11,225 bases of DNA from Verrucomicrobiota bacterium (GTDB taxonomy: Bacteria > Verrucomicrobiota > Verrucomicrobiae > Chthoniobacterales > UBA10450): NCBI GenBank assembly GCA_005887855.1, contig VBQB01000115.1, positions 1-11,225 on the forward strand, read 5' to 3'. Below, piece by piece: positions 1,395-10,709 of this stretch (the stretch's first letter is position 1; every line of letters begins with the position of its first letter). Position numbers and translations under genes: made by a program. Below the pieces are notes generated by a model, which was given only the letters and a program-made list of their open reading frames with translations, ran no database searches and had not been told where the DNA came from.

Positions 1395-1840
1395 TTACTT
1401 GTTTCTCCAAATTTTGGAGAACATTAGATGCAGTTCCCTTGCTTCAAGCCAGAGCGTTCCAGCTTGTGGTTTCATTCCGGCATTGCCCGAACGGCGATCC
1501 GAAGGAAATGCTTGGTTTCGCGCGCTTCCTTCCGGCAAGTTCCAATGCTTTTCAGAAATTCCTTTTTGGAAACTGCGTCGTCAGCTTCGACGTAGTTAGC
1601 GCCAACATTAGTGCCGGCGCCAACAAGCTGAGTGATAATTCGAGTGGTTACCGGATTTAGTGGAATCGTCTTCGCGAAATCGATAATTGCTTCGCCAAAT
1701 CGAGCCGTTCGTTCTTCCAAATCGTAAACCCGTTTCGTCTCTGGCTCTTCGCGGACAAGTCCTGCGCCATCATCCCAAAACGAATCGTCGGCCCGCGCAT
1801 CCGGGCCTTCCGATTTCGTCATTCCTTCGTCCTTCGTCAT
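1395..1840 (-). pseudogene. Four-helix-bundle (S23-like) protein gene with C-terminal frameshift
   Basis: The conceptual protein contains the family core, from YDLEERTARFGEAIIDFAK through QLVGAGTNVGANYVEADDAVSKK (split by normal family spacing) to CRKEARETKHFLR. This identifies the TIGR02436-type four-helix bundle related to the 23S rRNA intervening-sequence protein. The frame stops at 1472 after RAMPE. In the next frame translation continues as MKPQAGTLWLEARELHLMF and ends SKIWRNK with a stop at 1395-1397, which is the expected family C-terminus. One missing A near 1475 explains the break, so it is a true pseudogene, a variable allele or an assembly error. The start is uncertain: ATG at 1840 or 1822; the frame also stays open upstream into the sigma gene. 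The family has no firmly known biochemical role. The gene splits the sigma factor from its kinase and is flanked by inverted short repeats, which suggests insertion as a cassette. Confidence 0.8.
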
Positions 1841-1858
1841 TCGAGCTTCGTCATTTCC
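1812..1858. repeat. ATGACGAA-family short repeats, right flank of the four-helix-bundle gene
   Basis: On the plus strand TTCGTCATT occurs three times within 45 bases, interleaved with CTTCGTCC. The reverse complement reads AATGACGAAGCTCGAATG and then GGAATGACGAAATC, close to the left-flank copies at 1290-1355 but in opposite orientation. The cluster begins right at the sigma factor stop codon and overlaps the presumed four-helix-bundle start, so it may set both gene ends. Confidence 0.55.
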
Positions 1859-1859
1859 G

Positions 1860-2438
1860 TCAGTCCACGTTGTGCAATTCCGTATACAGCCATACTTTGG
1901 CGAATTCCCACTCACGCCTCACCGTTACACGTGAAATCTTGAGCACCTCTGCGATCTCGTCATAGTTGAGCCCGCCAAAATATTTGAGCTCGACGACTTG
2001 ACCTTTTCTTGAGTCGAGGCTGACCAGTCTTTCCAGTGCCTCATGTAGATCAACAATTTCCTTGGATTGCTCCGGTGAGACAATTGCTGCTTCGTCCAAC
2101 TCTACCTTGAGCGCGCCGCCGCCGCGCTTTTGGGCTCGATCACTCCTAGCGTAGCTAACCAGGATTTGGCGCATCGCTTGGGCGGCCACAGCGAAGAAGT
2201 GGGCGCGGTTCTGCCAGCGTGGATTGGTTTGGTCGGCCAGGCGCAGATAAGCCTCGTTGACCAGCGCCGTAGTTTGCAGTGTGTGGTCGGGGCGTTGTCC
2301 GCCCATATGACGATGAGCGAGGCGTCGGAGTTCCTCATAGACCAGCGGGGTCAATTCCGCGAGGGCAGCATCGTCCCCGCGACTCCAGTGCGCCAAAAGC
2401 TCGGTCACTCTTTGCCGAGAGACCGAAGGCGCATCCAT
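1860..2438 (-). CDS. ECF-type RNA polymerase sigma factor (Sig-70_X6/TIGR02999-like)
   Basis: This 192-residue protein is an extracytoplasmic-function sigma factor. Sigma region 2 spans roughly residues 30-105, with LRRLAHRHMGGQRPDHTLQT and AHFFAVAAQAMRQILVSYAR as recognisable family stretches. Region 4 spans about 135-188, with VVELKYFGGLNYDEIAEVLK followed by the recognition helix ISRVTVRREWEFAKVWL. There is no membrane segment and no anti-sigma partner next to it. I chose the ATG at 2438 because GAGGAAAAGG lies just upstream; a GTG eight codons earlier also keeps the frame but has its GAGG too close. In this family activity is often tied to a neighbouring Ser/Thr kinase rather than an anti-sigma factor, and such a kinase lies two genes downstream. 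The target promoters are unknown. Confidence 0.92.
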   Translation of the reverse strand: MDAPSVSRQRVTELLAHWSRGDDAALAELTPLVYEELRRLAHRHMGGQRPDHTLQTTALVNEAYLRLADQTNPRWQNRAHFFAVAAQAMRQILVSYARSDRAQKRGGGALKVELDEAAIVSPEQSKEIVDLHEALERLVSLDSRKGQVVELKYFGGLNYDEIAEVLKISRVTVRREWEFAKVWLYTELHNVD

Positions 2439-2615
2439 AACCTTTTCCTCGTATCCTATCACCCTCAGAAGTTTCCTGCACGCGGAAGCTTCTCCCGAAA
2501 AAATCTCAATTCAGATGATCACTTTGATCGAACTTTTTCGTTTATAGCAATGGAAGGGAAAACTACGAAACCAAAAAGAAAGAGATCACCTCAACAACAA
2601 TTAGAAACAAAAAAT
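2439..2615. other. Divergent intergenic region between ECF sigma factor and cupin
   Basis: This 177-bp gap must carry the promoters of both divergent genes. Its right half (about 2540-2640) is strikingly AT-rich compared with the surroundings. On the minus strand TATAAA (plus 2541-2546) could be a -10 for the sigma gene, with a poor TTCGTA 17 bp upstream. I found no convincing -35/-10 pair for the cupin. A short hairpin-like GGAAGCTTCTCC lies near 2485-2496. The regulatory assignment is weak. Confidence 0.3.
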
Positions 2616-3215
2616 ATGAAAACATTATATATAGCAAAATCAATTCACCGCTCGCCTTTGCGGCGTGCTCTGCTTCTCATCGCGCCGGCGCTGGTTATCG
2701 TCGCCGTGTTGACAGCCGTGCCAGCTCGCGCAACTCCCCAGTGCGCCGTGGCAACGGAGTTCATTGTTGGTAGCCCAACTCATGGCGCCCCCTTTCCAAA
2801 TGGCCTGCTCAACTTGATGTGCAACGAGTTTGACCAGTATGGGTGGAACCTCAAGATGATGGTGAAGGGGGACTCCGAACTTTATGTTGTCCGAAACACG
2901 TTCCCAGTCGGGGCTGAGACTGGATGGCACACGCATCCGGGGCCCAGCCTGATCACGGTTATATCTGGAGAGCTCACGGTCTACGAGGCTGACAATCCCA
3001 CCTGTACGCCCACAGTCTACCACGCAGGTGAGACGTTTACCGACATAGGCTGCGGGGACGTACACCTGATACGTAACGAGGGGACGGTTTGCGCGGTAAA
3101 TGTCGTGGTCCAGATCATTCCCGCAGGCCAGCCGCGAAGAAACGACAGGCCGGCCCCAGCTAATTGCCCACCAATTCTTTGTCCTTCACCTTCACCTACG
3201 CCTTGTCCTCAATAA
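2616..3215 (+). CDS. Secreted single-domain cupin protein
   Basis: The 199-residue protein starts with a clear signal peptide: basic MKTLYIAKSIHRSPLRR, a hydrophobic core, and a likely cut after ARA near residue 39. A single cupin barrel follows, with GWHTH (H105, H107) then VISGELTVY as motif 1 and GDVHLIRNEG (H150) as motif 2. These three His could bind a metal; the Glu expected in motif 1 is not at its usual place. The tail is rich in Pro and Cys (PSPSPTPCPQ), which points to an exported, perhaps surface-exposed, protein. The frame stays open upstream to 2130 across the sigma gene, so that part is a shadow. ATG 2550 is an alternative start but would put 22 polar residues before the signal. 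No ribosome site is evident. Being divergent from an ECF sigma factor suggests possible co-regulation. The substrate is unknown. Confidence 0.87.
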   Translation: MKTLYIAKSIHRSPLRRALLLIAPALVIVAVLTAVPARATPQCAVATEFIVGSPTHGAPFPNGLLNLMCNEFDQYGWNLKMMVKGDSELYVVRNTFPVGAETGWHTHPGPSLITVISGELTVYEADNPTCTPTVYHAGETFTDIGCGDVHLIRNEGTVCAVNVVVQIIPAGQPRRNDRPAPANCPPILCPSPSPTPCPQ

Positions 3216-3285
3216 TTGCCCATTCTGAGAACGAGAAAGAGTGAAGCAGCTCGACGGCCGCGGCATTTCAATCCAGTGAGCGCTC

Positions 3286-3708
3286 TTACATTGCGTGGAG
3301 CTCGCGCCGGATAACGAATCCTTCCAAATCGCGAACGTCAATCGGCTCGCCAGTTTTCGGCGAGAGCAGCATATGTTCCTCGGCGTCGTTCACCAAACTT
3401 GCGATCGATTGCCAGACATCTTCTCGGACGCTTGTCCCCATGAACCGAGCGGCCCGCCGGATGCGATTCCAAATTAAACGATCTTCGCATGCGATAACGG
3501 CGAAACCGGGCGGCGGATTCTCTTGGTCGATCTCATCTCCGCGAACCAATTGCGCCGGTAAGCGGCCGCGCGTGTAAAGCGTGAGGAATTGCTCGATCGA
3601 CATTCCGAATTCGTTAGCGATGCGCTGCACTACGCGCCGGCATTCTGAATTGAGATTCCATTCAACCACGCCGTTCTCTTTTTCTACAGTGAAGATGTTG
3701 TTGTTCAT
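3286..3708 (-). CDS. Hypothetical protein, possibly ribbon-helix-helix-like N-terminus
   Basis: I do not recognise this 140-residue cytoplasmic protein. Residues about 10-45 (VVEWNLNSECRRVVQRIANE, then FGMSIEQFLTLY) have a short strand followed by two amphipathic helices, which resembles a ribbon-helix-helix DNA-binding fold. A second helical segment follows around RLIWNRIRRAARFMGTSV, with an acidic C-terminal half. There is no signal peptide or membrane helix. I chose the ATG at 3708 because the frame upstream only opens with TTG and basic residues that look like untranslated sequence. It stands alone, next to tRNA-Asp and a direct repeat, so a link with an integrated element is possible but unproven. 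Composition is similar to its neighbours. Confidence 0.68.
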   Translation of the reverse strand: MNNNIFTVEKENGVVEWNLNSECRRVVQRIANEFGMSIEQFLTLYTRGRLPAQLVRGDEIDQENPPPGFAVIACEDRLIWNRIRRAARFMGTSVREDVWQSIASLVNDAEEHMLLSPKTGEPIDVRDLEGFVIRRELHAM

Positions 3709-3772
3709 GTAACCGTTAAGCGCCCGTTTCTTCCCGCGCGCAAGCACTATTTCCAAGCATCTAGGCAGGCCT

Positions 3773-4161: not shown

Positions 4162-5847
4162 ATGAGCGACGAGCGCAGCGAAGGACTTCAGGGCGGGGAA
4201 GGGGAGCCGGGCCCAGGTAATCTCCTCGATTCATTTGATCGTGTGATCGCGTCGTTGCCTCCGGGCGATCCGATTCGGCGCGAACTGCTCGATTTGCGCC
4301 CGGACATTTCCGATCGGGAAGAAGTATTGGTCGAAGCTCGCCGGATGATCGAGAAACTCGAGGAAGTCATTAAAAAGGTGACTTCGCCGGCGAACCGCAT
4401 CGGCACATTTCTCGGTGCCACCTCGCACGATACCGCACACATCGTCGTGGGGGGCGCCGACTATTATTGCAATGTCGATCCGCGCATCCCGCTGGCGAAG
4501 TTGAAAAAGGGCACTCGCGTCCTTGTCAACGAGGCATACGTCATTGTCGGTGATCTCGGATTTGAAACGGCGGGACCTGTGACAAAAATCACCGAAATTC
4601 TGGGCAACGATCGATTGCGTGTCGGCTCGGAGCACGGATTGCAATCGATGGTGCTGCAACGTTCCGCTGATCTTGCGCAGGCAACCTTGAAATCGGGCGA
4701 CGAAGTACGTGTCGATTCAAACTACCGGATGGCGCTCGAGATGCTCTCCAGCACGAAATCGCACGAGCATTATCTGGATAACGTGCCGGAACTGCCATGG
4801 GAAAAAGTCGGCGGTCAGGAGGCGGCCCTCCAGGCGATCAAGGATGCGATCGAGCTTCCGCTTTTGCATGTCGATCTTTTCAAGAAATTTCAGCACGCTA
4901 CGCCGAAAGGTTTCCTCCTCTACGGTCCCCCCGGTTGTGGGAAAACGCTGATCGGAAAAGCGACCGCTTACAACTTGACGAAGCAGCTTCGGGAAAAAAC
5001 GGGCGTCGAGATGCGTGAATATTTCATGCACGTAAAAGGCCCGGAGATTTTGAACATGTGGGTGGGTGAATCGGAAAGGATGGTGCGCGAAATTTTTGCC
5101 ACGGCTTGCGAGAAACGCGGCGAAGGTTTCATGCCTTTCCTTTTTATTGACGAGGCCGAGTCGATTCTCGGCACCCGCCGCGCCTCGCGTTATTCGAACA
5201 TTCTTTCCACGCTCGTGCCGATGTTTTGTTCGGAAATGGACGGAATCGATTCACTTAATGACGTTGTAATTATCCTCGCGTCCAATCGTGCTGACCTGAT
5301 CGACCCTGCCATTTTGCGCCCCGGCCGGATCGATCGAAAAATCAAAGTCAACCGTCCGGACAAGCGGGGTGCGCGTGATATTTATCGCATCTATCTCACC
5401 GACGATCTCCCTTACGATGGCGTGCTCGCGAAGGAAGCCGACGGTATCGGCGCGTCCATCGATCGATTGATCGAACGGTTTGTCGATTGGCAATTTACGC
5501 GACGCGACGAGAACAAGTTTCTCGAGGTGACCCTGCGCAGCGGACGTAAAGAAACGCTGTACCGTGGTGACCTCATCAGCGGTGCGATCATTGCCTCGAT
5601 TGTCGAGCGGGCGAAAGCCATGGCGATTAAACGGGCCATCGCCACCCAGCAGGAGGAAGGAATTCGGGAAACGGATTTACAACTCGCATTCAACGCGGAG
5701 TATGTCGAGAACGACATCTTCCCGACGACCGACATCACCGAGGACTGGCTCAAGCTGATCGATTACGACCCGGAAAACGTCGTCAAGATTGCGCCTGTGA
5801 AGCCGCTTGCAGACGGACGAAGTCGTGCACCATCCGGCATAATCTGA
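4162..5847 (+). CDS. mpa: Mpa/ARC-type proteasomal AAA+ unfoldase
   Basis: The 561-residue protein belongs to the ARC/Mpa family, the hexameric ATPase that pulls Pup-tagged proteins apart. In order: an acidic, flexible residues 1-20; a helical coiled-coil segment at about 50-75 (the Pup-binding region in characterised members); two OB-like barrels at about 80-200; and the AAA domain with Walker A GPPGCGKT (255-262), pore loop WVGES (300-304), Walker B FLFIDE (326-331), sensor ASNRADLID and arginine finger region RPGRIDR (386-392). The C-terminal part holds the family-specific DENKFLEVTLRSGRKETLY and SGAIIASIVERAKAMAIK, which separate it from Cdc48, FtsH and archaeal PAN. It ends in PSGII, without the C-terminal GQYL that lets mycobacterial Mpa dock on and open the 20S core. 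A strong promoter lies upstream; no Shine-Dalgarno is evident. A dop homologue lies downstream beyond a transposase gene. Its protease partner is not in the window. Confidence 0.94.
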   Translation: MSDERSEGLQGGEGEPGPGNLLDSFDRVIASLPPGDPIRRELLDLRPDISDREEVLVEARRMIEKLEEVIKKVTSPANRIGTFLGATSHDTAHIVVGGADYYCNVDPRIPLAKLKKGTRVLVNEAYVIVGDLGFETAGPVTKITEILGNDRLRVGSEHGLQSMVLQRSADLAQATLKSGDEVRVDSNYRMALEMLSSTKSHEHYLDNVPELPWEKVGGQEAALQAIKDAIELPLLHVDLFKKFQHATPKGFLLYGPPGCGKTLIGKATAYNLTKQLREKTGVEMREYFMHVKGPEILNMWVGESERMVREIFATACEKRGEGFMPFLFIDEAESILGTRRASRYSNILSTLVPMFCSEMDGIDSLNDVVIILASNRADLIDPAILRPGRIDRKIKVNRPDKRGARDIYRIYLTDDLPYDGVLAKEADGIGASIDRLIERFVDWQFTRRDENKFLEVTLRSGRKETLYRGDLISGAIIASIVERAKAMAIKRAIATQQEEGIRETDLQLAFNAEYVENDIFPTTDITEDWLKLIDYDPENVVKIAPVKPLADGRSRAPSGII

Positions 5848-5860
5848 TGCTCCTTTGATT

Positions 5861-5883
5861 GTAGGAGAAGCTGCCAGCTTTCC
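5861..5883. repeat. REP-like imperfect hairpin after mpa (left copy)
   Basis: GTAGGAGAAGCTG (5861-5873) is followed after one base by CAGCTTTCC, an imperfect palindrome starting 13 bp after the mpa stop. It matches the 13-base arm of the perfect palindrome at 6337-6363 at 12 of 13 positions. It may also help terminate mpa transcription, though no T-run follows. Confidence 0.65.
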
Positions 5884-5981
5884 GATGATATGGCGAACCA
5901 CCGCGGCTGCCGGAAATTCAATTACCGTGGGAAAAATCAATTATTTACTTTGTAACCCTGTGCGTAAAAGACCGACGCAAG

Positions 5982-6404
5982 GTGTTGGCTAATCCGAAAA
6001 TGTTTCAAGCCATCAAAGCGACAGTCGCGCAGCTTCGGCGATGGCATGTGCTCGCTGCTGTGATCATGCCTGATCATGCACACTTGATCGTTTCGCCGAT
6101 CGAAAACCGCGGGCTTTCCGTCGGCGATTTTTCCACGGGTCTCAAACGAGTGCTGCGAAAAATGCTTGGTTCGCAGCCGTGGGAATGGCAGCGCGGTTGT
6201 TTTGATCGCCTTTTGCGATCCGATGAGAACCTGCACAACAAATGGATTTATGTGCAGGACAATCCGGTGCGGCATGGTTTGGCCGAGAAGGCGGACGATT
6301 GGCCGTACTATCTGGATTTCATCAATGAACCCCGTGGTAGGGGAAGCTGTCAGCTTCCCCTACAGAAAACGGGGCAACAGACGATCGGGGTGGGCGGGCG
6401 ATGA
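5982..6404 (+). CDS. REP-associated tyrosine transposase (RAYT, Y1_Tnp/HUH), 5' end defective or uncertain
   Basis: The product is a small HUH-type nuclease of the IS200/IS605-like RAYT group, which nicks single-stranded DNA at REP hairpins. Visible motifs are the HUH pair in VIMPDHAHLIVSP (H32, H34) and the catalytic Tyr90 in NKWIYVQDNPVRHGL. Homology clearly starts earlier: the same frame from 5889 reads PRLPEIQLPWEKSIIYFVTL and then CVKDRRKVLANPK, but it has no ATG, GTG or TTG before GTG 5982, and a TGA lies at 5886. So the true start was probably lost or shifted. At the 3' end the frame runs through a perfect palindrome and overlaps the dop start by ATGA. REP-like hairpins lie on both sides. 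The gene sits between mpa and dop and probably arrived by transposition. Whether it is still active is doubtful. Confidence 0.82.
   Translation: MLANPKMFQAIKATVAQLRRWHVLAAVIMPDHAHLIVSPIENRGLSVGDFSTGLKRVLRKMLGSQPWEWQRGCFDRLLRSDENLHNKWIYVQDNPVRHGLAEKADDWPYYLDFINEPRGRGSCQLPLQKTGQQTIGVGGR
6330..6374. repeat. Perfect REP palindrome upstream of dop (right copy)
   Basis: GTAGGGGAAGCTG (6337-6349), one T, and its exact reverse complement (6351-6363) make a perfect 27-base palindrome. It is enclosed by an outer pair, CCCCGT (6330-6335) and ACGGGG (6369-6374). The inner arm matches the left REP copy at 5861 in 12 of 13 bases. It lies inside the 3' end of the transposase frame and ends 37 bases before the dop ATG, so a hairpin in the mRNA could affect dop translation or readthrough. 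Confidence 0.85.
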
Positions 6405-7930
6405 AACGCATCTTCGGTCTTGAGACGGAGTACGGCATTACGGTAAGCGACGCTGAGAGTGTCGATGTTGTCGCCGAATCGATACAGCTGGTGCGGCATT
6501 ACACCGAACACGGCGCGCTCATGAAATGGGATTACGAGTTGGAAGATCCACATCTCGATGCCCGCGGTTTTCGTGCCAGGGAATTGCTCCAGGACACCGA
6601 TGAATCGGCTTACTATGAGATCGACAAAAATCGAGCGCTCAGTTTCGAAGAAATAAAAAGCGACCTCGTTCTTTCAAATGGCGCCCGTTTTTACAACGAC
6701 CACGCCCATCCGGAATACTCTACTCCGGAATGCACGACGCTCCGGCAAATCGTGGCACAGGACAAGGCCGGCGAGCGCATCCTGGCGGAATGCGCGCGGC
6801 GTCGAAACCAGAAATTGCCGCCTGGCCACGAAGTCCGTCTTTACAAGAACAACAGCGACTTTGTCGGGCACAGTTACGGCTGTCACGATAATTACCTGAT
6901 GAGCCGCGGGATCGCATGGGACCGCATCGTCGCCGGCGTTCTGCCGTTTCTCATCACACGCCAAATCTTCGCCGGCGCAGGAAAGATGGGCATCGAAGCG
7001 GAGAGCGCGTCGGGCGAGCCTGGTGTTTTTCAGATTTCGCAACGCGCGGATTTTTTCAGTGTGCTGGTAAGTATTGACACCATGAATCGTCGTCCGCTGG
7101 TCAATACGCGCGACGAGCCGCATGCCGATGCGAGCCGCTATCGGCGGTTTCACGTTATCCTGGGCGATTCGAACATGAGCGAATGGGCGATAGCCATGAA
7201 AATCGGGACCACGGCGCTTGTTCTCGATCTGATCGAACGCGGGGAAGCGCCGCAACTCGAGATCGCGCAACCGATCGATGCGAACAAATCGATTAGCCGC
7301 GATCAAACTTACGACTGGATTATCGAGTTAAAGGACGGACGAAAGATTTCCGCAATCGATGTGCAACGGATTTATCTCAAGGCGGCGGCCAGGATCGACG
7401 ATGGCACGGACGAGGATCGACAATGGATCTTGCGCGAATGGGAGAATGTTCTCAACGATCTCGAGCGCGACGTTATGCTGACGCGCGACCGGGTCGATTG
7501 GATGGCGAAGAAGTTCTTGCTTGATGCGTTGCAGGCAGAAGAAAAGCTTTCCTCGAAGGATCCGTGGCTGCAATCGATCGATCTAGAGTATCACAATGTC
7601 GATCTTGAGCATGGCCTGTATTACGAGCTTGTGCGTCAGGGGGCGATGCGCCGCGTCGTGACCGAAGACGAGATCAAAACGTCAATCTTCTGTCCGCCAG
7701 AAACCACACGCGCATTTTTTCGCGGCCGTTCTGTTGCACGTTTCAACAACGAGATTTCCTCGATCCAGTGGGACGAAATCGTCTTCGAAAATCGATCGCA
7801 AATCCGTCGGATCGTTTTGCCCGAAGCCGCATCGGACGTCAGACTCAGTGCGTTAAATCACGCCGCGCGCAATGGTAAAGACTTTGCAGAATTCATTCGC
7901 GCGATCAGTGAGATCAGCGATTCGCAGTAG
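6401..7930 (+). CDS. dop: Dop-type Pup deamidase/depupylase homologue (Dop/PafA family)
   Basis: The 509-residue protein is a glutamine-synthetase-like enzyme of the Dop/PafA family, which acts on the C-terminus of the ubiquitin-like modifier Pup (deamidation and removal from targets for Dop, ligation for PafA). Visible motifs: GLETEYG with E8 and E10 at the ATP/Mg site, YNDHAHPEYSTPEC with the catalytic Asp100, HSYGCHDNYL (157-166), NTRDEPHAD (235-243) and GDSNMSE (255-261). The long insert at about 40-90 (KWDYELEDPHLDARGF onward) and DHAHPEYS are Dop-like; TRQIFAGAGK and GDSNMSE read more like PafA. I call it Dop mainly on the insert and length. GGGGTGGGCGGG just upstream of the ATG may serve as a ribosome site, and the start overlaps the transposase stop. 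No Pup, PafA or 20S gene is next to it. It converges with guaA. Confidence 0.92.
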   Translation: MKRIFGLETEYGITVSDAESVDVVAESIQLVRHYTEHGALMKWDYELEDPHLDARGFRARELLQDTDESAYYEIDKNRALSFEEIKSDLVLSNGARFYNDHAHPEYSTPECTTLRQIVAQDKAGERILAECARRRNQKLPPGHEVRLYKNNSDFVGHSYGCHDNYLMSRGIAWDRIVAGVLPFLITRQIFAGAGKMGIEAESASGEPGVFQISQRADFFSVLVSIDTMNRRPLVNTRDEPHADASRYRRFHVILGDSNMSEWAIAMKIGTTALVLDLIERGEAPQLEIAQPIDANKSISRDQTYDWIIELKDGRKISAIDVQRIYLKAAARIDDGTDEDRQWILREWENVLNDLERDVMLTRDRVDWMAKKFLLDALQAEEKLSSKDPWLQSIDLEYHNVDLEHGLYYELVRQGAMRRVVTEDEIKTSIFCPPETTRAFFRGRSVARFNNEISSIQWDEIVFENRSQIRRIVLPEAASDVRLSALNHAARNGKDFAEFIRAISEISDSQ

Positions 7931-8194: not shown

Positions 8195-9790
8195 TCACTC
8201 CCACTCGATCGTGCTCGGCGGTTTACTTGAGATATCGTAACAGACGCGATTAACGCCTTTGACTTCGTTACTGATTCGAGCGGAGATACGCGCGAGCAAT
8301 TCGTAGGGAAGTCGCACCCAATCTGCAGTCATGCCATCCTGGCTTTCGACGATGCGCAGCACGATTGTATTTTCGTAAGTGCGCTGATCGCCCATTACGC
8401 CAACCGAGCGGACCGGGAGCAGGACAGCGAAGGATTGCCAGACGCGATAATACCAATCAGAAGATTCCATTTCGCTCACGACAATTGTGTCCGCTTCGCG
8501 CAAGATCGACAATCGCTCCGGGGTGACTTCACCGAGAATGCGAACGGCAAGGCCCGGTCCCGGAAAGGGCTGACGATACACGATCTCTTTAGGCAACCCG
8601 AGCTGCAACCCGGCCTGGCGTACTTCGTCTTTGAATAATTGTCGAACCGGTTCGACGAGCTTGAAGTGCATTTTCTCGGGCAATCCGCCAACGTTGTGAT
8701 GACTTTTGATCACCTGTGCGGGATTGCCCTCGATCGATACGCTCTCAATCACGTCTGGATAAAGGGTGCCTTGCGCGAGAAACTTGTAACCGCGGTGTTT
8801 GCGGGCGCCGTTCCTTCGGTCTTCCGCGAGTAACTCTTCAGTCGCATGTTGGAACACTTTGATGAATTCGCTGCCGATAATTTTCCTTTTTGTTTCCGGA
8901 TCGGTCACGCCTTTGAGCACGGCGAGGAAGCGTTTGCTCGCGTCCGCATATTTCAAACGCACGTGAAAATTTTCGCCGAAAACGCGCTGGACGATTTCTT
9001 CCTCGCGCGAACGGAGCAGTCCATTATTCACGAAAATGCAGGTAAGCTGGTCGCCAATGGCTTTATGCAAGAGCGCAGCGGTCACGGAAGAATCGACCCC
9101 GCCGCTTAAACCGAGCACCACTTTTTGATCACCGACCTGTTCGCGGACGCGTGCGCAAGCTTCTTCGATGAACGAACCCATCGTCCAGTCCATCGTGCAG
9201 TGGCAGATGTGATAGACGAAATTCTGCAGAATCTCCTTCCCGCGCGGTGTGTGCCCGACTTCGGGATGAAATTGCAGCCCGTAAAGTTTGCGTTCCGGAT
9301 CCTCCACCGCTGCGAAGTTGGAGCTCTCCGTCCTCCCGGCAGCGCGAAATCCCTTCGGCAGCGCCGTCACTTCATCGCCATGACTGTTCCAGACATCGAT
9401 CTGTGGGCCGAGCCCACCTAGCAGTTGCGAGCCGTTTGCGATGTGCAACGTCCCAGCGCCGTACTCGCGTCGCCCGGTGAACACAACCTGGCCGCCGAGG
9501 TGATGTGCCATCAGCATCAAGCCATAACAAATGCCGAGCACCGGGATGCCGAGCGAAAAGATTTCTGGATCGAGATGTGGCGCGTCTTTGTCGTAAACAC
9601 TTGCGGGACCACCAGAGAGAATGAGTCCGTTCGGTTTCAGCTTGGCGATTTCAGCTGCGGATGTGTTGAAGCGAACAATCTCCGAATAAACCTGCAATTC
9701 ACGAATGCGCCGCGCAATGACTTGTGTGTACTGGGAACCGAAATCGAGAATGAGGATTCTTGAATGCGCTGATGGAGCCGCCGTCTTCAC
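8195..9790 (-). CDS. guaA: GMP synthase (glutamine-hydrolysing)
   Basis: The 531-residue enzyme converts XMP to GMP using ATP and glutamine, in purine synthesis in the cytoplasm. The N-terminal class I glutamine amidotransferase domain (about 10-200) has the nucleophile Cys88 in GICYG and the His175/Glu177 pair in QFHPEVGH. The ATP pyrophosphatase domain has the PP-loop SGGVDSS at 229-235 and the family sequence [16 protein letters not shown]. The C-terminal dimerisation domain ends in the conserved KPPSTIEWE. Length matches the family. The start is GTG at 9790, 3 bp after the stop of a small lipoprotein gene with no clear ribosome site, so translation is probably coupled. It ends facing dop across a repeat element. 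No guaB is visible. The assignment is certain. Confidence 0.98.
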
Positions 9791-10136: not shown

Positions 10137-10709
10137 ATGATCGATCCGGAACTTTTGTTGCAAGGCTATCGGCTTGGCGTCTTTCCGATGGCGATGGGGA
10201 ACGGCACGATTGAATGGTTCTCACCCGATCCCCGCGCGATTTTGCCGCTCGATGCATTTCATCTTCCCCATGCCCTACAGCGCGTCGCGCGGAAAAAAAC
10301 TTTTGAAATCAAGATCGACGATCGCTTTTCGGATGTGATCGAGGCCTGCGCGAAGCGCGAAGACACGTGGATCAATCGGGAAATTATCGAGAGCTATACA
10401 CGATTGCACGAGCTTGGCTACGCGCACTCGGTCGAAGCTTGGAGGGAGGGTCAACTCGCCGGCGGACTCTACGGGGTCGCAGTCGGCGGCGCATTTTTTG
10501 GCGAATCGATGTTTCATCGCGTTACAGACGCGTCGAAGATCGCGCTGGTGGCGCTCGTGCAACATTTGCGTGCGAAAAAGTTCGTGTTGCTCGACACCCA
10601 ATGGCTCACGCCGCACTTGCAACACTTCGGCGGCATCGAGATTTCACGGAACCATTACCTGCGCTTGCTCAAGCGCGCGGTCGAATTGCCGCGCAAATTC
10701 GGGGACTGA
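10137..10709 (+). CDS. aat: Leucyl/phenylalanyl-tRNA--protein transferase
   Basis: The 190-residue enzyme moves Leu or Phe from aminoacyl-tRNA to the N-terminal Arg or Lys of proteins, creating a bacterial N-degron normally read by ClpS and degraded by ClpAP. The family signature is clear: YRLGVFPMA near the start, WFSPDPRAILPLD (27-39), the core GGLYGVAVGGAFFGESMFHR (109-128), and LLDTQWLTPHL followed by HFGGIEISRNHYL. It is shorter than E. coli Aat (234 residues) because it lacks the extra N-terminal segment, as in many other bacteria. The ATG at 10137 fits the alignment start, but no ribosome site is visible. It is a single gene; tRNA-Phe, a source of its substrate, lies 217 bp downstream. 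The assignment is sure. Confidence 0.96.
   Translation: MIDPELLLQGYRLGVFPMAMGNGTIEWFSPDPRAILPLDAFHLPHALQRVARKKTFEIKIDDRFSDVIEACAKREDTWINREIIESYTRLHELGYAHSVEAWREGQLAGGLYGVAVGGAFFGESMFHRVTDASKIALVALVQHLRAKKFVLLDTQWLTPHLQHFGGIEISRNHYLRLLKRAVELPRKFGD

Follow-up and report, generated by a model that had tools for sequence, protein, structure and literature searches.

The Pup-proteasome system of Actinobacteria consists of the modifier Pup, the enzymes Dop and PafA, the ATPase Mpa/ARC and the 20S core PrcBA. A Gram-negative counterpart, the UBact-proteasome system, contains UBact (PF20513, NF033388) in the place of Pup; UBact as such was reportedly described in 2017, and the UBact calls made here rest on the Pfam and NCBIfam models. 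Pathway components have been recorded in Verrucomicrobia before. The available part of a 2008 report (PMC2588565) places Pup and PafA outside actinobacteria, including Verrucomicrobia, with Chthoniobacter flavus in an alignment key. The accessible portions of three further sources describe 20S genes in Methylacidiphilum infernorum (PMC2474590), a Gram-negative proteasome group including Verrucomicrobia (PMC5666114), and Dop/PafA homologues that are very sporadic in Verrucomicrobia (PMC7947786).

We have analyzed an 11,225-nucleotide stretch of DNA from a Verrucomicrobiota soil bacterium of the order Chthoniobacterales (assembly GCA_005887855.1, contig VBQB01000115.1), referred to below as the window, which carries an mpa gene and a dop gene with the following features.

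4162-5847, + strand: mpa, UBact-type Mpa/ARC proteasomal AAA ATPase, 561 amino acids, intact frame; N-terminal helix, two OB domains, AAA domain, C-terminal beta-grasp region and flexible tail
5833-5844, + strand: last four codons of mpa (Ser-Gly-Ile-Ile), a tyrosine-free aliphatic C terminus at the place of the mycobacterial GQYL
6401-7930, + strand: dop, UBact-type depupylase/deamidase-like enzyme, 509 amino acids, intact frame

Very probably the window's mpa and dop belong to a six-gene UBact-type proteasome system; the other four genes most likely lie elsewhere in the genome, and Mpa would dock without a tyrosine. The UBact-type system is most likely complete with its genes scattered, to judge from gene content in relatives, because these hold UBact, PafA and 20S genes away from mpa and dop. 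Among the UBact-type proteasome systems, that of the window is an ordinary one: the six components would be the same, and its Mpa and Dop group with those of whole clusters. The genes are in separate places in relatives and most likely in the window's own genome, whereas they are together in whole clusters such as L076-L080. The clusters of L218-L223, also from Verrucomicrobiota, hold the same six genes and Mpa tails ending VV, but the genes form one cluster and Dop is 51-54% identical to that of the window. Homology to the Pup system extends to the ATPase and Dop and, in relatives, to PafA and the 20S subunits. In contrast to that system, the relatives have UBact instead of Pup, their Mpa has neither GQYL nor a penultimate tyrosine, and their alpha-subunit pocket is without Glu119 and mostly without Arg26. 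This removes what looked like an anomaly, an ATPase and a Dop that had no partners.

The mpa and dop genes of the window

The AAA domain (103 bits) and both proteasomal-ATPase OB domains of the window Mpa were matched in profile searches. Its best relatives in the PDB were mycobacterial Mpa proteins (E 1.7e-102, alignment spanning residues 51-556), to which the OB domains, the AAA domain and the C-terminal region are homologous. Aligned along its length, the protein is 56-65% identical to the Mpa proteins of L076-L079. The predicted structure, with the N-terminal helix at 37-74, was of middling quality (mean predicted local distance difference test score 61).

The window Dop scored 548.6 bits against the Pup-ligase/depupylase superfamily PF03136, passing the gathering score of 25, and matched the NCBIfam Dop model better than the PafA model (478.1 versus 390.9 bits, both below the curated cut-offs). 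Its alignment with the Acidothermus Dop structure starts at residue 1, those with PafA structures not before residue 86. In a 36-row tree the window Dop grouped with 16 other UBact-type Dop rows (support 90/78), and a branch with support 100/100 set it apart from the 17 UBact-type PafA rows. The two rows from a Pup-type cluster (L201, described below), both long-branched, pair with each other in the Dop part of the tree, in a join that the program flags as possibly false; this counts against a clean Dop/PafA picture.

Profile and sequence searches of the window at the thresholds used gave no UBact, Prc or PafA match. The preliminary description of this DNA had reported Mpa and Dop together without UBact/Pup, pafA or prcBA, and had read the Mpa end as PSGII instead of GQYL; both statements are borne out, with intact mpa and dop frames. 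A small modifier hidden in the window was considered and rejected, as there was no UBact match and no frame of at least 35 amino acids ending in G[EQ]; open reading frames down to 25 amino acids between positions 3200 and 8300 were also scanned by eye.

Remaining pathway genes in related genomes

Eighty related loci were fetched with Dop. They came from metagenome-assembled genomes (MAGs) of Verrucomicrobia, Spartobacteria, Chthoniobacterales, Ca. Udaeobacter and Chthoniobacter, from Chthoniobacter flavus and, for four of the loci, from Ca. Poribacteria. By Dop identity, which reaches 90% with L001, the window belongs to the Chthoniobacterales. The genomes of 50 of these loci were searched, namely 48 Chthoniobacterales-like genomes (G001-G048), G049 (locus L076, Verrucomicrobiia) and G050 (locus L077, Poribacteria).

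Mpa was matched in all 50 genomes, including all 48 Chthoniobacterales-like ones. UBact exceeded the Pfam cut-off in 45 of the 50 and 43 of the 48. Pfam Proteasome was matched in 47 of the 50; judged from the places of the matches, 43 of the 48 have a beta-type 20S gene, which is fragmented in G006. PafA, called at 59% identity or more to the L076 PafA in the main stretch (Dop reaches about 43-47%), was present in 44 of the 48; it was fragmented in G001 and G030 and had one internal stop in G039. Dop, UBact and PafA occurred together in 40 of the 48. The closest relatives searched, G001, G003 and G027, whose Mpa proteins are 93, 94 and 92% identical to that of the window, all have UBact, a beta-type gene and PafA. 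UBact was not found over the Pfam cut-off in G002, G007, G018, G019 and G023 among the 50 genomes, and the same five lacked a beta-type 20S match; PafA was not found in G002, G016, G020 and G035 among the 48. As in the UBact system, the UBact proteins of relatives end R-T-G-[EQ]; of 70 rows, in which overlapping loci are counted more than once, 52 end RTGQ and 18 RTGE. G036 has two UBact matches that exceed the cut-off, one adjoining prcB and the other at G036:C227:16653-16781.

In 37 of the 40 genomes with all three genes, dop, ubact and pafA were on three different contigs by hand count, a figure inflated by short contigs. pafA and ubact share a contig in G040, G041 and G042; dop was not on the same contig as ubact in any of the 40. 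The separation is seen on long contigs in G015, where dop, ubact and pafA are on contigs of 368, 737 and 191 kb, respectively. Of the 60 partly overlapping loci L111-L170, 58 have the adjacent gene order ubact-prcB-prcA; the exceptions are L111, which is of the Pup type, and L143, a short contig. A distance of about 1.6 kb separates pafA from ubact in Chthoniobacter flavus, with mpa and dop on two other contigs.

All six genes (mpa-dop-ubact-prcB-prcA-pafA) form one cluster in eleven loci from Verrucomicrobiota and Poribacteria, L076-L080 and L218-L223, with two unrelated frames between dop and ubact in L078. L218-L223 belong to six genomes of the phylum of G041, and UBact was detected in 10 of 288 genomes drawn from that phylum. 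Because the six genes are whole in these loci, partly joined in C. flavus and scattered in the others, the simplest reading is that a cluster whole in other lineages came apart step by step here. As the UBact genes of soil Chthoniobacterales are scattered, inspection of gene neighborhoods alone overlooks them.

The beta subunits keep Thr-1, Asp-17 and Lys-33 in all 52 distinct aligned stretches, which may include the Pup-type L201 beta subunit and may count overlapping loci more than once. Several Chthoniobacterales-like genomes have a weaker second proteasome-fold frame (profile positions 7-185) away from ubact-prcBA (G034:C5:341272, G033:C66:8421, G046:C9:135794, G030:C106:15777, G025:C247:8468 and G023:C25:745), which we presume, guessing at names, to be perhaps Anbu- or BPH-like. 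The G050 assembly (Poribacteria) holds both the UBact-type cluster L077 and a Pup-type cluster (L201:592-7107), possibly through a binning error; in the latter Pup ends GGE and Mpa ends GAYL.

The Mpa C terminus and the alpha-subunit pocket

The window Mpa ends ...APSGII, with isoleucine and not tyrosine as its penultimate residue. Across a survey covering Verrucomicrobiota and Poribacteria, a [VI][VI] end was present in 72 of 75 distinct Mpa proteins read to the stop codon; the three exceptions were the Pup-type Mpa of L201 in G050 and the disrupted frames of L019 and L023, which diverge from Mpa ahead of its C terminus. The same end was found in 61 of 63 tails of related loci, including the set of ubact-prcB-prcA loci. 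Among the best 120 matches to poribacterial Mpa, 119 end VI or VV and one 894-residue protein ends SI. Mpa carries this aliphatic tail in all eleven whole clusters, where mpa and the 20S genes lie together. Because this end is shared by nearly all such Mpa proteins, those of whole clusters included, the missing GQYL is a trait of UBact-type Mpa and no defect or loss in the window's Mpa. A loss of docking together with GQYL is rejected, since such tails also occur where mpa is clustered with 20S genes. Over the 72 Mpa proteins the last two residues have entropies of 0.68 and 0.41 bits, as against 1.7-3.4 bits for the fourteen before them; this far stronger conservation suggests that selection acts on the very end of Mpa.

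The available text of PMC9599533 describes the corresponding contacts in Mycobacterium tuberculosis. Arg26 or Glu119 of the alpha subunit forms a bond with the penultimate tyrosine of Mpa, the terminal carboxylate reaches Lys52 in one of two modes, the tail makes further contacts with Asp144 and Ser146, and both Arg26 and Lys52 are required for PafE-driven degradation. We aligned 41 distinct complete UBact-type alpha subunits in M. tuberculosis numbering, picked by an N-terminal motif and by completeness, with divergent or cut ones left out. Lys52 and Asp144 are present in all 41. Glu119 is replaced by leucine (36) or isoleucine (5), and Arg26 is lost in 40, position 26 being occupied by Pro (13), Gly (9), Ser (8), Ala (8), Thr (2) and, in L076, Arg (1). 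Position 146 is variable. A looser set had Lys52 in 69 of 69 alpha subunits. The best 120 poribacterial-type alpha subunits have Lys52 in 118 with 2 gaps, Ile119 and Asp144 in all 120, and Arg26 in none; where organism names are given, in this set as in the best 120 Mpa matches, all are Ca. Poribacteria. The alpha subunit of Rhodococcus, our Pup-type yardstick, has Arg26, Lys52, Glu119 and Asp144, and the Pup-type alpha subunit of G050 has lysine at 26 and keeps positions 52, 119 and 144.

The UBact type thus differs from the Pup type in both the Mpa tail and the alpha pocket, although one evolutionary event may account for both. We propose a tyrosine-free docking mode in a matched pocket, for which the steadily conserved tail end is the best support. 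That UBact-type proteasomes of Gram-negative bacteria in general would dock Mpa in this way, by two beta-branched aliphatic residues at its end, in a pocket that has lost Arg26 and Glu119, is aliphatic at 119 and has kept the lysine, and that this would act as a specificity code against Pup proteasomes, is a proposal whose chances we consider evenly balanced. If true, the code of tail and pocket would keep UBact and Pup proteasomes apart, even in the G050 assembly carrying both. We found neither the [VI][VI] tail nor the pocket change stated in the available parts of the non-subscription literature searched, which included PMC8755798, PMC12288473, PMC9599533 and PMC4254994. The shared tail and pocket change are the part that a specialist might find worth testing, and the rule is a testable one: proteasome ATPases of Gram-negative bacteria may not need, for docking, the tyrosine regarded as central to HbYX/GQYL activation.

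Proposed mechanism and alternative explanations

The biochemical steps proposed here follow by analogy from the Pup system; they and the docking geometry are inferred, and what is observed are the genes, their places in relatives and the conserved tail and pocket residues. ubact, prcB and prcA would lie together, and pafA apart from them, elsewhere in the window's genome. Pup ending in glutamine needs deamidation by Dop, and UBact ending in glutamine would likewise; Dop would deamidate such UBact and later remove UBact from its targets, and PafA would join UBact to lysines. The N-terminal coiled coil of Mpa would bind the tag, and Mpa would unfold the target and feed it to the 20S core. Mpa would dock through its [VI][VI] C terminus, the carboxylate pairing with the invariant alpha lysine (Lys52 in M. 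tuberculosis) and the aliphatic side chains sitting in a pocket that has lost both tyrosine partners.

The gap between mpa and dop bears on one of the alternatives and contains the following gene, which does not figure in the preliminary description.

5982-6404, + strand: RAYT-like gene (REP-associated tyrosine transposase), 67.3 bits with NF047646, below the cut-off of 80

REP-like palindromes flank this gene on both sides, with cores at 5868 and 6344. mpa was found on 62 of the 80 loci, some of the others ending too soon. The gap in these 62 holds a RAYT-like gene in 7, measures 6-204 bases in 42 and 1-9 kb in 12, and is replaced by a fused frame in L023.

Several points weigh against assigning the window to a complete UBact-type system with tyrosine-free docking. 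The window Mpa scores 461 bits against TIGR03689 (Actinobacterial-type Mpa/ARC), under the curated cut-off of 504.75, and is for this reason taken as a UBact-type homologue and no member of that equivalog; the window Dop is likewise below the cut-off of TIGR03688 (Actinobacterial Dop), 492.3 bits. ubact, prcBA and pafA are known from relatives, from which we infer their presence in the window's own genome. Eight of the 48 relatives are without UBact, PafA or both, and five of them lack UBact and the beta-type match together; we take these absences as probable gaps in MAGs. The alpha subunit of L076 keeps Arg26 although its Mpa is without tyrosine, and the link between tail and pocket lacks independent repeats because both changes are perhaps one event.

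Some Actinobacteria keep Pup genes without prcBA, and in the window's lineage the 20S core, or else all of the tagging half, might similarly have disappeared, leaving Mpa as a stand-alone unfoldase. The five genomes with neither UBact nor a beta-type match fit this explanation, but the joint absence is also what is expected if a single locus that would hold both was not assembled. One of the five, G018, retains a truncated alpha-type 20S match at a contig start (G023 has a proteasome frame of another kind), and the closest relatives have the full set, with PafA fragmented in G001. We consider such a loss very unlikely. Decay of mpa and dop into a remnant broken by mobile REP elements, to which the RAYT-like gene, the palindromes and the scattered pathway genes might point, is scarcely credible: both frames are intact, Dop is 83-90% (90% in L001) and near-full-length Mpa 84-94% identical to that of the window in L001-L031, and the same kind of insertion occurs in 7 of 80 loci, with short gaps in 42 others. 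The preliminary description had also offered Mpa working with another protease or with none; this part of its interpretation did not hold, given the beta-type genes of relatives and their conserved Thr-1, Asp-17 and Lys-33, and a partial pathway using another protease is rejected. Its other proposals, that the rest is encoded elsewhere and that Dop acts with a divergent, UBact-like modifier, are supported by the close relatives. The two findings that it had named as speaking against its interpretation, a complete gene set elsewhere and the same tail in relatives with a proven 20S complex, were made in relatives at the level of gene content, with a 20S complex that is predicted.

Regarding docking, the aliphatic end may be no docking element, the beta-grasp hairpin mainly holding the 20S core and tail and pocket differing by common descent. 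According to the available part of PMC9599533, contacts of the beta-hairpin of M. tuberculosis Mpa are needed for degradation. The tail and pocket changes may both have arisen just once, in a common ancestor of all UBact-type proteins. On the other side are the sharp drop in entropy at the last two Mpa residues and the invariance of the carboxylate-binding alpha lysine. This alternative is a serious one, which we hold to be somewhat less likely than not.

Neighboring genes

Downstream of dop the window contains three further frames.

8195-9790, - strand: guaA
Between guaA and aat: 66-residue frame
10137-10709, + strand: aat (N-end-rule enzyme)

The left part of the window (1472-3756, with 23S-IVP-like, ECF sigma factor, cupin-like and 156-residue frames) was unmatched near dop in all 80 loci. 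The three frames follow dop in relatives as well: guaA does so in 25 of the 80 loci and aat in 22, some loci being too short to judge. Downstream of prcA, relatives carry an N-acetylmuramoyl-L-alanine amidase gene (3 of 3 tested) and a gene with a peptidoglycan-binding domain (2 of 2 tested), the tested frames being among L203:2287-3886, L205:7468-9088 and L207:8983-9771.

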